This document shows positions 1,797 through 48,394 of a stretch of 64,000 nucleotides of DNA, piece after piece. Source of the stretch: Candidatus Iainarchaeum sp. (GTDB taxonomy: Archaea; Iainarchaeota; Iainarchaeia; Iainarchaeales; SKW153). The notes under the pieces are model-generated. The model saw only the letters and a program-made list of their open reading frames with translations. It did no database searches and was not told the DNA's origin. Location of the stretch: assembly GCA_026414365.1 (NCBI GenBank), contig JAOAJD010000001.1, positions 62,001-126,000 on the forward strand, given 5' to 3'. The position numbers and the translations under genes were made by a program. The number at the start of each line of letters is the position of its first letter. Position 1 is the first letter of the stretch.

Positions 1797-2654
1797 ATGT
1801 ATCCTGAAGATGCTGGAGCAGAAGCACCACCTGCTAATTATTACCCCGAACCAAGTATACAATCAAAAATAGCATATCATTTAGAAGGTCTTGTACCTAT
1901 TTTAATAATTCTTATTTTGGCGCTCTTCTTAGCAGTTAAGTTTGATATTATAACTACAAATACTCCTGTTTTAGGAATATTGGCAGATGTTGTAGAACCT
2001 ACAAAAAAGATAAACGTATTGATTATAAGTGAAAATGAAAATAGTGTGTCTCCTTTCATAATAGAAACTTTAAATCAAAACTCGGATTTAGTTAAATATA
2101 GAATAAGATCTGCTAATGATCTATCAATAAATCCAAAACAAAAGATAGAAAATTATGACATGATAATGCTAGCAGGAGTAAAGTATATGCCATTAAGCTT
2201 AGGTAAAGCTATTGTGGAATATGTTAAAGGTGGTGGGAAACTCATAACAATAATGGATGCTGGTATAAGAAGACCTTCCACACCAGATGTTTTAGGATGG
2301 GAAGAAACTTTTGAGGATATAATACCTGTTACATGCGAAAAAAATTCTTCAGGTAGGCCAGGTTGTATAGATAGAATCTATGTAAGAGGAAAACTCTATA
2401 GAGAAGACGAAGAGCATAAAATAATGAGAGGATTTGAAGAAGTTCCACAAGAGCCCAATGCATACAAAGACTTTGAAATATTGGACCTAACATACACAGG
2501 TAATGAAATAGCATATATCAAAGGAGGACAATATCAAAAACCATATCCTGGTATTGTGGAAAAGAAACTTGTGTTTGGAAAAAGTATTTATTTTAATTAT
2601 GATCCTGGTACTACTCCAGGTATTCTAATGGCTACTATTGATTACTTGAAGTAA
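1797..2654 (+). CDS. Membrane-anchored protein with GATase-like domain, paralogue of the gene at 3..836
   Basis: One N-terminal TM segment followed by an alpha/beta domain (KINVLIISENENS…NYDMIMLAGVKYM…GGGKLITIMDAG). Confidence 0.6.
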   Translation: MYPEDAGAEAPPANYYPEPSIQSKIAYHLEGLVPILIILILALFLAVKFDIITTNTPVLGILADVVEPTKKINVLIISENENSVSPFIIETLNQNSDLVKYRIRSANDLSINPKQKIENYDMIMLAGVKYMPLSLGKAIVEYVKGGGKLITIMDAGIRRPSTPDVLGWEETFEDIIPVTCEKNSSGRPGCIDRIYVRGKLYREDEEHKIMRGFEEVPQEPNAYKDFEILDLTYTGNEIAYIKGGQYQKPYPGIVEKKLVFGKSIYFNYDPGTTPGILMATIDYLK

Positions 2655-2780
2655 AAAATAGTTTTAGCCTTTTTTTAATTTCTATTTTTAACACAAAACA
2701 AAATCTTTATATTAACTATCTAATATAATAACTTTTATATAAAAAAATAGAAATTCAGTAACACACACGGAGGTATCACT

Positions 2781-3062
2781 ATGGCTGAAAATTTGCAAGA
2801 AAATGTAGTTTTTGTTGGTAAGAAAAGCACGATGGCATATGTGCTAGCAGTAGTAACTCAGCTAAACCAAAACAATAAAGAAGTAGTAATAAAAGCTAGA
2901 GGAAAGGCAATAAGTAGAGCTGTCGATGTTGCTGAAATAGTAAAGAACAAGTTTATGAAAGATATAAAAGTAAGCAACATAAGCATCTCTACCGAGGAAA
3001 TTCCTTCACAAGAAGGAAATCCTTTAAAAATATCCGCTATAGAAATAGTTCTAAAAAAGTGA
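2781..3062 (+). CDS. albA: DNA/RNA-binding protein Alba
   Basis: [44 protein letters not shown] is the Alba signature. Shine-Dalgarno GGAGGT lies upstream of the ATG. Confidence 0.95.
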
Positions 3063-3082
3063 CTACTGAGTTACTCAGTAGT
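3062..3082 (+). terminator. Hairpin directly after the alba stop codon, followed by a T-rich tract
   Basis: ACTACTGAG-TTA-CTCAGTAGT (9-bp perfect stem) then TAACTTTTCACTTTTTATTTTTTT. Confidence 0.5.
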
Positions 3083-3152
3083 TAACTTTTCACTTTTTAT
3101 TTTTTTATTAATTATATACTATTTAGTTTAATGAGTTGGAGAGTGTATATTA

Positions 3153-3650
3153 GTGAAAACTTTAATATGTGAGAATGATCTAAAAAAAGGTAGTTTATGC
3201 AAAGAATGCAGTAAAAAGTTAGAAGAAGGCAAGATAACAGAGTTGGAGGTTAAAATATCTAAAAAACTTTATGCACTGGATAAAAAATTCTTTTTTTTGG
3301 ATTTAGAATTGAAGGGTGCAATAGAAGTTGAAGATATTGTGATTCTACTTTGCAAAGGGAATATAGGACAACTTATTGGTAAAGGAGGAAAAATTATTGG
3401 AGAGATAAGCAAAGAAATAGGAAAAAAATGTAGAATCGTTGGTGTAGATAAAGATGAAAAGCAAGTAGCACAGGACTTGTTTGGCAACGTAAGAGTTATT
3501 GGTCTAAATAAAATATACAATTTAGGAAACTTAGAATATGTTGTAATTATAAAAAAAGATGATGAAAAAAACTTAAATTTTAAAATTAATTCCTTGGAGA
3601 AAATACTAGAAAAGATACTTGGAGCAAAAACAAAGATAGAATTTATGTAA
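3153..3650 (+). CDS. KH-domain RNA-binding protein (NusA-like)
   Basis: KH loop IGQLIGKGGKIIGEISKEIGKKCRIVG; N-terminal CxxC pair. Confidence 0.7.
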   Translation: MKTLICENDLKKGSLCKECSKKLEEGKITELEVKISKKLYALDKKFFFLDLELKGAIEVEDIVILLCKGNIGQLIGKGGKIIGEISKEIGKKCRIVGVDKDEKQVAQDLFGNVRVIGLNKIYNLGNLEYVVIIKKDDEKNLNFKINSLEKILEKILGAKTKIEFM

Positions 3651-5580: not shown

Positions 5581-5654
5581 CTTAAAGATAACAAAGTTAA
5601 ATATTTTTCAATATATCCTCATTAAAAAAAAGCATTTGCCAAAGCTATAAAATT

Positions 5655-5738
5655 GCAGGGGTGCCCGAGTGGCCAAAGGGGTACGGTTGAGGGCCGTATG
5701 GCTTAGTGCCTTCGCGAGTTCGATTCTCGCCCCCTGCA
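5655..5738 (+). tRNA. tRNA-Leu(GAG)
   Basis: Acceptor GCAGGGG/CCCCTGC, anticodon arm TACGG-TTGAGGG-CCGTA, long variable arm (class II), T arm GCGAG-TTCGATT-CTCGC. Confidence 0.95.
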
Positions 5739-5804
5739 TAATCGCAAACAAAAATACATCTAACTAAAACAAAAAATTTAAAATTAGAAAGCAATAATTT
5801 AAAT

Positions 5805-6710
5805 ATGGGCAAGAAACCACAGATTTTTACAAAAAAAAGTGTTGAAAGAGATATAATATTTAGAGATAACTATCCTACAAAATTCCCTGTTGAAACAAAA
5901 AAATTTTTAACAAAGGAAAACATAAAACAAATAAGAGACAGAGCTAAAAGTACATTTTGTGCTACTAGATTTATTGTAACGCATCCGATAAAAACGATTA
6001 AGTTCAGAAGACTGGCAGGGAGTTATGCATCAAGAAGAATAAGATTAATAATGGCTAAAAGTTTTTTAGCAAGTATCTTAGAAACAGAGAATATAAAACC
6101 ACTATCCATGATTTCGAGAGTAAAGAGAGCATATTCTTTATATGCGAAAGCTGAGAGAAAAAATGTTCCTATAGAAAATATTGTCGATGAAGCATTAGGA
6201 ATTAGAGTTATAGTAAAAAATACGCAAGAATGTTACGATGTTTTAAATGCATTAAAAAAACATTTTCCTAATGCAAAATATAAAATAAAAGATTATATAA
6301 CAAAGCCTAGAGCAGGTGTTTATAGGGGAATTCATGTTATAACAGATGCACTTGGTCAAGATATAGAGATACAGATAAGATCTGTTAGAATGATAGCTGA
6401 AACAAATATGATGGACCAATTATTGGGTGATTATAGAAAAGGAAATAAAGAGAAGAGAGCTAAGTTAGCAGAAATGACCAAAGACTTATATACAAAATTT
6501 GAGAAATATCCTAATCAAAAAGTGAAATATTTCATAGATTGGTTTATTTCGACAGGAGTAAGCGCAGAATTTGCAACTTTTGCTGCTAGAATAATGCGAG
6601 AAGCAGGATTACTAAGTAAGAAGGAAAAGGAAACGGTAACAAACGCAGTTAAAAGGATAGCAAAAGATTTAATACAAAGAGAAGAAAATATAAAAAATAA
6701 GATTACTTAA
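5805..6710 (+). CDS. RelA/SpoT-like nucleotidyltransferase domain protein (putative alarmone synthetase, no HD domain)
   Basis: SRVKRAYSLYAKAERKNVPIENIVDEALGIRVIV…CYDVLNALKKHFPNAKYKIKDYITKPRAGVYRGIHV…IEIQIRSVRM aligns with RelA/SpoT RPKHIYSIxRKMxxK…DxxAxRVxV…DYIxxPKPNGYxSxH…EIQIRT. Confidence 0.8.
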   Translation: MGKKPQIFTKKSVERDIIFRDNYPTKFPVETKKFLTKENIKQIRDRAKSTFCATRFIVTHPIKTIKFRRLAGSYASRRIRLIMAKSFLASILETENIKPLSMISRVKRAYSLYAKAERKNVPIENIVDEALGIRVIVKNTQECYDVLNALKKHFPNAKYKIKDYITKPRAGVYRGIHVITDALGQDIEIQIRSVRMIAETNMMDQLLGDYRKGNKEKRAKLAEMTKDLYTKFEKYPNQKVKYFIDWFISTGVSAEFATFAARIMREAGLLSKKEKETVTNAVKRIAKDLIQREENIKNKIT

Positions 6711-7228
6711 AAATTTTCTTTTACTAAATCTCCTATTGAACTTTTTAGATCAGACAATAATTTTTTACTAGCCTTCAATTTAAGATACGTATTTTTTGTT
6801 TCTTCATCAGTATAAGATATTTCAAAAACACCATCAGCTCTCTTTAATAAATTCACATTATTTCCATACTTCTTCTTTAAAGCTTCAATCAACTCTTCTT
6901 CTTTCAATATTAAATCTAATTTGGCACTTAAATAACTTTTAACTTTGTTAAGCTCAAGAATATGTTCTCTAACTTCATCTAACAAACTTTGGTGCCCATC
7001 TGAATGAGGTGCTATTTCCAAAGGTGTTTCAGTTAGTCCTTTTTTAGATATTTCCACAAACAATTCTCTATTTTTAGTTTCAATAATTTCCTGCATTTTA
7101 CTAAACCTATCTATCTCATCTTCTATCTTTGATAAAAGGAATCTTAATCTCTCTTCTTTATCTTTCAGATCTTCCATTTTGGTCACCAAATCTAAAATAA
7201 ATATCTTAGTTAGCTTTTTATATTCCAC
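6707..7228 (-). CDS. Coiled-coil protein of unknown function
   Basis: Long open frame, heptad-like charged sequence; abuts the HerA-like gene. Confidence 0.5.
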   Translation of the reverse strand: MEYKKLTKIFILDLVTKMEDLKDKEERLRFLLSKIEDEIDRFSKMQEIIETKNRELFVEISKKGLTETPLEIAPHSDGHQSLLDEVREHILELNKVKSYLSAKLDLILKEEELIEALKKKYGNNVNLLKRADGVFEISYTDEETKNTYLKLKASKKLLSDLKSSIGDLVKENF

Positions 7229-7284
7229 CTATTTAAAAAAAATAAATACTTAACTTATTTAAATACTAAACTATTATTCTAATT

Positions 7285-8580
7285 ATGAATGTAGACATTG
7301 TATCAGAAGACGCAATTATAGGAAGAAGTTTAGATGATATTGAAAAATATGGGCAAAAAGGTACAGCATATATTGGCAAAGTGGTAATGTCATCTGGCGA
7401 AAGACCAGTACTTGGTAGAAGAATCTTGTGTGATGTTGCAAGACCTCATGTTGTACTAATCTGTGGGAAAAGAGGTGGAGGAAAAAGTTATACCATGGCT
7501 GTTTTTATAGAAGAATTTGCAAGATTACCTCTTGAATTGAAAAAAAGGATTTCTGTTATAGTTATAGATACTGTAGGAATATTTTGGAGTTTAAAAATTC
7601 CAAACAAACTAAATGTTTCGGATATAGAAAAGTGGGGTTTGAGAGCTGAGGAAACCAGAGTTAGAGTTTTAGTACCAAAAGGTAAAAAAGATTTTCTAAT
7701 CAAAAAAGGAGTGCCTGTGGATGATGCGTTTACTATAAAGGTGAGTGATTTAGATGAAACAGAGTGGTTAGCATTATTTAGATTAAGTTGGAAAGATCCA
7801 GAAGGTGTTTTATTATCAAGATCTATTGAAAAAGTGAAAGAAACATTAGGCACTTATTATGGAATAGAAGATATAATAAAAGCAGTAAGGACAGATGAAG
7901 AAGCAGATAAAATAACGAAACATGCTGTTATAAACAGATTAAAGGTAGCTCAAAGTTGGGGTTTGTTAGAAAAAGAGGGAACACCTATAAAAGAGATTGC
8001 AAAAGCAGGAGAAGTTACAATAATAGATATATCAACATATAGAACTACTGTGGGTATGGAAAGTACTGGAGAGATGATTGTTGGATTACTAGGGAAAAAA
8101 TTATTTGAAGAAAGAATGCTTTATAGAAAAGAAGAAGAGACAAAACTAATACAAGGAAAAGAAAGAGAAAGTGAAATGCCCATTGTTTGGTTATTTGTAG
8201 ATGAAGCTCACATGTTTATGCCAAATGATAGGCCAAGTATTGCCCTTGAGGTTTTATTAGAGTGGATAAGAATAGGTAGACAACCTGGATTAAGTTTGGT
8301 TTTAGCAACACAAAGAACAGAGAAACTTCATTCGGATGCAATTTCACAATGCGATATATTTATAAGCCATAGAATGACAGCAAGATCAGATATAGCTGCA
8401 GTGGCACAACTAAGACCGAGTTATATGCATCAGGACTTTGATAAATATTATGAGGAAATGCCAAAAGCAAAGGGATTTGCACTAATACTTGATGATAACT
8501 CTGAGAAAATATGGCTTGTTAAAATAAGACCTAGATTGTCTTGGGATGCCGGGGTTACTGCAAACGCTTTTAGAAAATAG
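7285..8580 (+). CDS. HerA-like ATPase (DUF87 superfamily)
   Basis: Walker A VLICGKRGGGKSYTMAVF, Walker B WLFVDEAHMFMP, LATQRTEKLHSDAISQCDIFISHRM. Confidence 0.88.
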   Translation: MNVDIVSEDAIIGRSLDDIEKYGQKGTAYIGKVVMSSGERPVLGRRILCDVARPHVVLICGKRGGGKSYTMAVFIEEFARLPLELKKRISVIVIDTVGIFWSLKIPNKLNVSDIEKWGLRAEETRVRVLVPKGKKDFLIKKGVPVDDAFTIKVSDLDETEWLALFRLSWKDPEGVLLSRSIEKVKETLGTYYGIEDIIKAVRTDEEADKITKHAVINRLKVAQSWGLLEKEGTPIKEIAKAGEVTIIDISTYRTTVGMESTGEMIVGLLGKKLFEERMLYRKEEETKLIQGKERESEMPIVWLFVDEAHMFMPNDRPSIALEVLLEWIRIGRQPGLSLVLATQRTEKLHSDAISQCDIFISHRMTARSDIAAVAQLRPSYMHQDFDKYYEEMPKAKGFALILDDNSEKIWLVKIRPRLSWDAGVTANAFRK

Positions 8581-48294: not shown

Positions 48295-48300
48295 GGAAAG

Positions 48301-48394
48301 AGCCCTGAGAGGGATTTGAACCCTCGACCACTCGCTTTCTTTTAAAAACACTTTTTATTACGAGGCGAGTGCTCTGCCACTGAGCTACCAGGGC
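48301..48394 (-). tRNA. tRNA-Thr(CGT) with intron of about 22 nt
   Basis: Acceptor GCCCTGG/TCAGGGC, D arm GCTC…GAGC, anticodon stem CTCGC/GCGAG interrupted after CTCGTA, T arm GAGGG-TTCAAAT-CCCTC. Confidence 0.92.

Follow-up and report, generated by a model that had tools for sequence, protein, structure and literature searches.

A stand-alone RelA/SpoT synthetase-type protein with a displaced catalytic acid in Iainarchaeales, an archaeal order whose long homologues appear divided into synthetases and hydrolases

The window analyzed here is a stretch of 64,000 nucleotides from a contig of Candidatus Iainarchaeum sp. Near its beginning, a gene (P0001) coding for a short RelA/SpoT homologue (RSH) lies between a tRNA gene and a conserved convergent gene:

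5654..5739, + strand: tRNA-Leu (GAG), 65 bp upstream of P0001; context only
5805..6710, + strand: P0001, short RSH with a stand-alone RelA_SpoT synthetase-type domain, 301 aa
6707..7228, - strand: convergent 173-aa gene (c173), a conserved neighbor of herA in the order; not an antitoxin partner (context)
7285..8580, + strand: HerA-type ATPase; context

A preliminary description, made from the letters of the window, had seen at 5805-6710 a RelA/SpoT-like alarmone synthetase homologue in an archaeal chromosome. The open reading frame is real, with exactly these boundaries on the + strand, an ATG start, 301 codons for amino acids and no interruption. Its codons follow the native usage strongly (rank 52 of 55 open reading frames), which indicates an established gene. 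Local GC content is unchanged, and the contig, 522 kb long, carries Alba, RadA and a family-I ProRS, so the archaeal chromosome also holds. The neighborhood corresponds to a conserved block (GLMA-like, Alba, sometimes a KH protein, c173 on the - strand and herA on the + strand), found whole or in part in the 12 relatives examined. In the window, this block (1797-3650 and 6707-8580) is broken by HIT, Ham1, a CDF transporter, tRNA-Leu and P0001. No RSH or P0001 orthologue was found at the same site of the block in the relatives, and the location of P0001 is lineage-specific. Looking for signs of integration at tRNA-Leu, we found no convincing att-like direct repeat. The DNA on either side also showed no trace of HD or TGS and is occupied instead by the tRNA gene and the converging conserved gene. 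Two observations concern other features. In several relatives (L233, L238 and others) the herA homologue has a break after residue 67, inside a single frame of ca. 810-909 aa, that resembles an intein or an inserted domain. At 48300-48394 of the window (- strand), ARAGORN reports a tRNA-Ile whose anticodon, AAT, is unusual in archaea; the tRNA may contain an intron or be miscalled.

Membership of P0001 in the RelA_SpoT synthetase (SYN) family, named for the enzyme domain responsible for ppGpp, a starvation signal of bacteria, is confirmed. The only Pfam match over the cut-off was RelA_SpoT (PF04607), at 75.4 bits with a gathering score of 27 (E 5.5e-21, residues 104-199), and TIGR00691 covered residues 76-202 (E 2.7e-25). 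A sequence search of the PDB placed E. coli RelA and other Rel proteins at the top (1.3e-11), with RelP and RelQ much weaker. Pfam detected no HD, TGS or ACT domain, as the preliminary description had stated; P0001 therefore falls outside the long RSHs, which combine these domains, and within the SAS as defined by a SYN domain alone. The protein, which is basic (pI 10.1), can be divided as follows:

5805..5984, + strand: residues 1-60, basic N-terminal extension; 1-31 of low model confidence, 37-59 helical; no family match
5985..6104, + strand: residues 61-100, helical linker (pI 11.5), collinear with its counterpart between HD and SYN in long Rel
6105..6404, + strand: residues 101-200, SYN core (Pfam, alignment, AlphaFold2 model, Foldseek)
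6405..6707, + strand: residues 201-301, C-terminal extension, all helical, basic; no family match

An AlphaFold2 model, for which an alignment of 67 SYN domains served as input, was confident in the core (block pLDDT 81-98 for the most part, falling to 81 near residue 125) and weak at the N-terminal residues. The predicted structure has the SYN nucleotidyltransferase fold, and Foldseek matched it to Rel, RelA, RelP and RelQ with a probability of 1.00 (E 2e-8 to Rel). Neither Pfam nor the model revealed TGS, ACT or a beta-rich pseudo-zinc-finger in the C-terminal extension. Profile, structure and sequence matches thus agree on the family proposed earlier, with no sign of another nucleotidyltransferase family or of a clear loss of the catalytic acids.

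The residues of the active site are located in four segments:

6117..6158, + strand: donor-site motif R105-x-K107-xxx-S111-xxx-K115-xx-R118 (FaRel2 R64, K66, S70, K74, R77)
6186..6206, + strand: D128-E129-A-L-G132-I-R134, displaced catalytic acid; E129 is canonical relative to strand beta2, D128 one before
6282..6335, + strand: K160-I-K162-D163-Y-I and G-loop P168-R-A-G171-V-Y173-R-G-I-H177; acceptor-base Tyr and His kept, Gly at the N306 position
6366..6380, + strand: conserved beta5 motif E188-I-Q190-I-R192

P0001 retains the residues of all 14 columns that are invariant in the 67-row SYN alignment, and every motif named in the preliminary description is there (RxKxxxSxxxK, D128, D163-Y-I, Y173, H177 and E188-I-Q-I-R192), including the family signatures RxKxxxSxxxK, G-loop Tyr, His and ExQxR. 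Residues R105, K107, S111, K115, R118, R134, E188 and Q190 correspond to R64, K66, S70, K74, R77, R95, E145 and Q147 of FaRel2, which hold an ATP analogue in its crystal structure (PMC11782079). However, the motifs do not simply follow "in order", since the Asp of IVDEALGIR (D128) is six and not five residues before the conserved Arg (R134), with E129 in the canonical place. By motif, the five-residue spacing is found in 61/61 archaeal synthetase-type proteins (S-type, see below) and 64/66 other relatives; it is nearly universal in the RSH superfamily, yet no curated family model demands it. A one-residue shift like that of P0001 appeared in none of the 61 archaeal S-type proteins and in no confirmed bacterial case. 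Given that the predicted beta2 strand begins three residues before the Arg in P0001 and in a canonical bacterial Rel alike, the metal ligand could be E129, or else D128 accommodated by a bulge. Of the three G-loop changes pointed out before, only one is unusual. The N306G replacement occurs in 0/58 S-type, 1/55 other and 6/24 dead hydrolase-type (H-type) domains, but K304R is found in 5/55 non-S-type sequences, and roughly half of the relatives have another residue at G307.

The presence of an RSH in an archaeon, which had been taken as the surprise, turned out to be ordinary for this lineage. The same genome codes for a full-length Rel, located just downstream of radA:

L026:7225-9054 (G000:C11): full Rel, 609 aa, with HD_4, RelA_SpoT, TGS and ACT_4

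Its HD motif is degenerate (HN for HD, without ED), and it has canonical synthetase motifs. Long RSHs were detected in 64 of the 75 genomes of the order, whereas searches of the 12 other genomes of the class yielded no hit. RSHs were already reported in DPANN archaea in 2021, with a presence of 69.0% in Diapherotrites, which judging from RSH prevalence and group size is probably the phylum of the window (GTDB Iainarchaeota), and of 41.7% in Woesearchaeota (PMC8407392); the passage of that study on RSH presence does not describe a division between synthetases and hydrolases. Judged by sequence motif, the 93 long RSHs examined in the order appear to split into synthetase-only (S-type, 61) and hydrolase-only (H-type, 32) proteins, in a manner resembling RelA/SpoT but stricter, and no bifunctional Rel was found among them. 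HDxxED is present in 32/32 H-type and 0/61 S-type proteins, canonical catalytic-Asp spacing in 61/61 S-type, and ExQ[IAVL][RK] in 61/61 S-type versus 6/32 H-type, figures that measure the cleanness of the split and are no blind test of it, because the labels were first assigned by inspecting these same motifs. The H-type proteins form one clade on SYN sequence (SH-aLRT 99), and their SYN domain is degenerate, with RxK kept in 3/32 and EIQIR in 6/32 by motif; P0001 keeps both. With an H-type profile, we found an H-type gene in 34 genomes and an end fragment in one more (the 35th); the remaining genomes have only the S-type. Three near-complete genomes (G012, G011 and G003) have a synthetase-type RSH with degenerate HD and no RSH hydrolase that we could find; the S-type is the only HD_4 protein in G012 (99%, one contig) and G011, and no HD_4 protein was found in G003.

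As for its origin, P0001 has the appearance of a long RSH reduced to linker and SYN domain, not of a SAS of the RelQ/RelP type, given that residues 61-100 are collinear with the stretch joining HD and SYN in long Rel. The profile ranking agrees, with 102.9 bits for the bacterial long-RSH SYN domain, 93.2 for the archaeal S-type, 70.7 for SAS (a profile built on only five sequences) and 58.0 for the dead SYN of the H-type. No full-length relative or orthologue was found in the 86 other genomes of the phylum that were searched (the class- and phylum-level searches covered the same 87 genomes), and DNA-level scans of genome and viral contigs recovered no close relatives. Phage and plasmid searches gave only generic Rel/SAS matches, with query coverage of at most 54%. 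In the trees, P0001 has a very long branch (0.74 to 2.85 changes per site) and a position, also relative to the named SAS subgroups, that moves with the taxon set; the profiles favor long RSHs. One tree made it sister to a divergent 193-aa RSH of genome G072 (SH-aLRT 96). We dropped this grouping because the G072 branch is itself 2.4 long and P0001 joins other long branches once G072 is removed. That G072 protein (L096:1969-2550) is highly divergent, with Glu at the usual place of the catalytic Asp and without the usual ExQIR Glu, and it adjoins open reading frames that by eye are NUDIX, cupin-like and CYTH-like. A second independent short RSH of the order, with 191 aa and canonical synthetase motifs, is found in G015 (L028:2757-3332).

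We consider P0001 most likely to be an active ATP-dependent stand-alone pyrophosphokinase, derived from a long RSH and acting on a guanine nucleotide, a reading to which we give about an even chance. It would be what remains of a long RSH, its linker and synthetase domain, after the loss of HD, TGS and ACT and the addition of basic helical ends. ATP-Mg would be held in the retained donor site (R105, K107, S111, K115, R118, R134, E188 and Q190), the acceptor base would stack on Y173 and the pyrophosphate would be moved to the acceptor 3'-OH. The product would be a guanosine alarmone, additional to that of the full-length Rel of the genome. As P0001 is devoid of TGS and ACT, it would probably be free of ribosome and tRNA control, judging from the biology of Rel. 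In favor of this reading are the score above the gathering threshold, the Rel/RelP/RelQ fold, the 14 invariant columns, the FaRel2-like donor site, the collinear linker, the native codons and the conservation of RxK and EIQIR; against it are the Asp out of register, the Gly at N306, the very long branch and the absence, in our searches, of an orthologue that would reveal selection on the active site.

Three of these unfavorable features could mean that P0001 is catalytically dead or residual and has been kept for binding, as a nucleotide sensor or as a regulator of full-length Rel or of RNA, in the manner of the dead SYN of the H-type. This is possible, although clearly less probable. The one-residue insertion at the catalytic Asp, a loop replacement shared with 6/24 H-type and 0/58 S-type domains, and the very long branch all fit, and dead SYN and dead HD domains have been retained repeatedly in the phylum. 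However, P0001 differs from the H-type SYN in preserving every donor-site residue, together with EIQIR and the Tyr and His of the G-loop, and it offers an acidic residue in either register. A bolder version of the active pyrophosphokinase, which we regard as rather unlikely, would have this long-RSH-derived archaeal enzyme use a catalytic Glu or shifted Asp on a non-canonical acceptor (an adenosine nucleotide, a nucleotide of the IMP/XMP type or the 3' end of an RNA), with a monofunctional Rel working alongside it in an order that would have re-created the RelA/SpoT split.

Quite unlikely, in our opinion, is a pyrophosphokinase directed to RNA, with the tRNA 3'-CCA end as acceptor, as in toxSAS, and the basic helical ends binding RNA. 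The linker and SYN segment is certainly basic (pI 10.1 versus medians of 9.3 in the S-type and 6.4 in bacterial long RSHs, with 11.5 for the linker), and toxSAS that act on tRNA make use of basic N-terminal regions (PMC11559606, PMC11782079); but the H-type segments are basic too (median pI 9.7). Similarly, the Foldseek alignment is longer to the tRNA pyrophosphokinase CapRel (254-258 columns) than to Rel, but by TM-score CapRel fits no better than RelQ, and the rmsd is high (9-11 A). The locus has no toxin-antitoxin organization, the downstream gene being convergent and ancestral to it, and P0001 has an all-helical C-terminus, with neither a beta-rich pseudo-zinc-finger nor an antitoxin domain of the CapRel kind; it also lacks an antitoxin-type YXXY, since its sole YXXY falls within the catalytic helix. 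We found nothing specific in common with toxSAS. A PADLOC match to PDC-S33 was rejected as a defense lead, as ordinary Rel domains score equally well and the match is generic. Finally, that P0001 is an artefact (a Rel fragment, a pseudogene or a contaminating bacterial contig) is very improbable, for although it occurs in a single genome with an assembly 68.5% complete, its intact frame, native codons, unchanged local GC, 522-kb contig, flanks syntenic with archaeal relatives and lack of adjacent HD/TGS remnants speak against it.

As of 2021, (p)ppGpp had gone undetected in every archaeon tested (PMC8646023), and in the view of 2011 archaea were without long RSHs (PMC3153485). Here is an order with a full putative synthetase in most genomes, a separate putative hydrolase in about half and, in one species, a stand-alone synthetase-like protein, a set that makes archaeal alarmone signaling directly testable with purified enzymes and laboratory E. 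coli strains. The displaced catalytic acid of P0001 would probe how much the RSH active site tolerates. These two, the displacement and the order-wide division, are the parts worth testing; the preliminary description had missed both, as well as the full Rel of the genome and the long RSHs of the order, and of its overall reading the RSH-family synthetase-type protein stands and the archaeal oddity does not.

Among known systems, the toxSAS tRNA pyrophosphokinases (FaRel2, CapRel and PhRel) share with P0001 the fold, the donor-site residues and the basic ends, but we found neither an antitoxin gene or domain nor specific sequence kinship. The unplaced archaeal and eukaryotic SAS known as divRel[S] (Atkinson et al. 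2011, PMC3153485) resemble it by their description, being SYN-only, sporadic and unplaced in trees; however, the archaea carrying them were said to lack long RSHs, and the genome of P0001 has a full Rel. RelP and RelQ are stand-alone SYN proteins as well (Foldseek probability 1.00, target-normalised TM 0.49-0.62), but they are shorter (ca. 210 versus 301 aa), the linker of P0001 resembles that of long Rel, and the sequence matches are weak (mostly E 3e-4 to 0.0084, the best being 6.6e-7 to B. subtilis YwaC; 32 bits with the YjbM/RelQ model, cut-off 320). The full Rel of the same genome is 36% identical across the SYN core, but has the HD-SYN-TGS-ACT architecture with a degenerate HD, the canonical D+5R and G-loop and an EFDD motif. 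Long RSHs (Rel/RelA) in general are the best sequence match, with a collinear linker and SYN core and shared invariant residues; P0001 differs from them in its missing HD, TGS, zinc-finger and ACT domains, the Asp displaced by one, N306G and its unique helical ends. At the level of the whole order, the apparent division recalls RelA and SpoT of E. coli, two proteins that share out the making and breaking of the signal.
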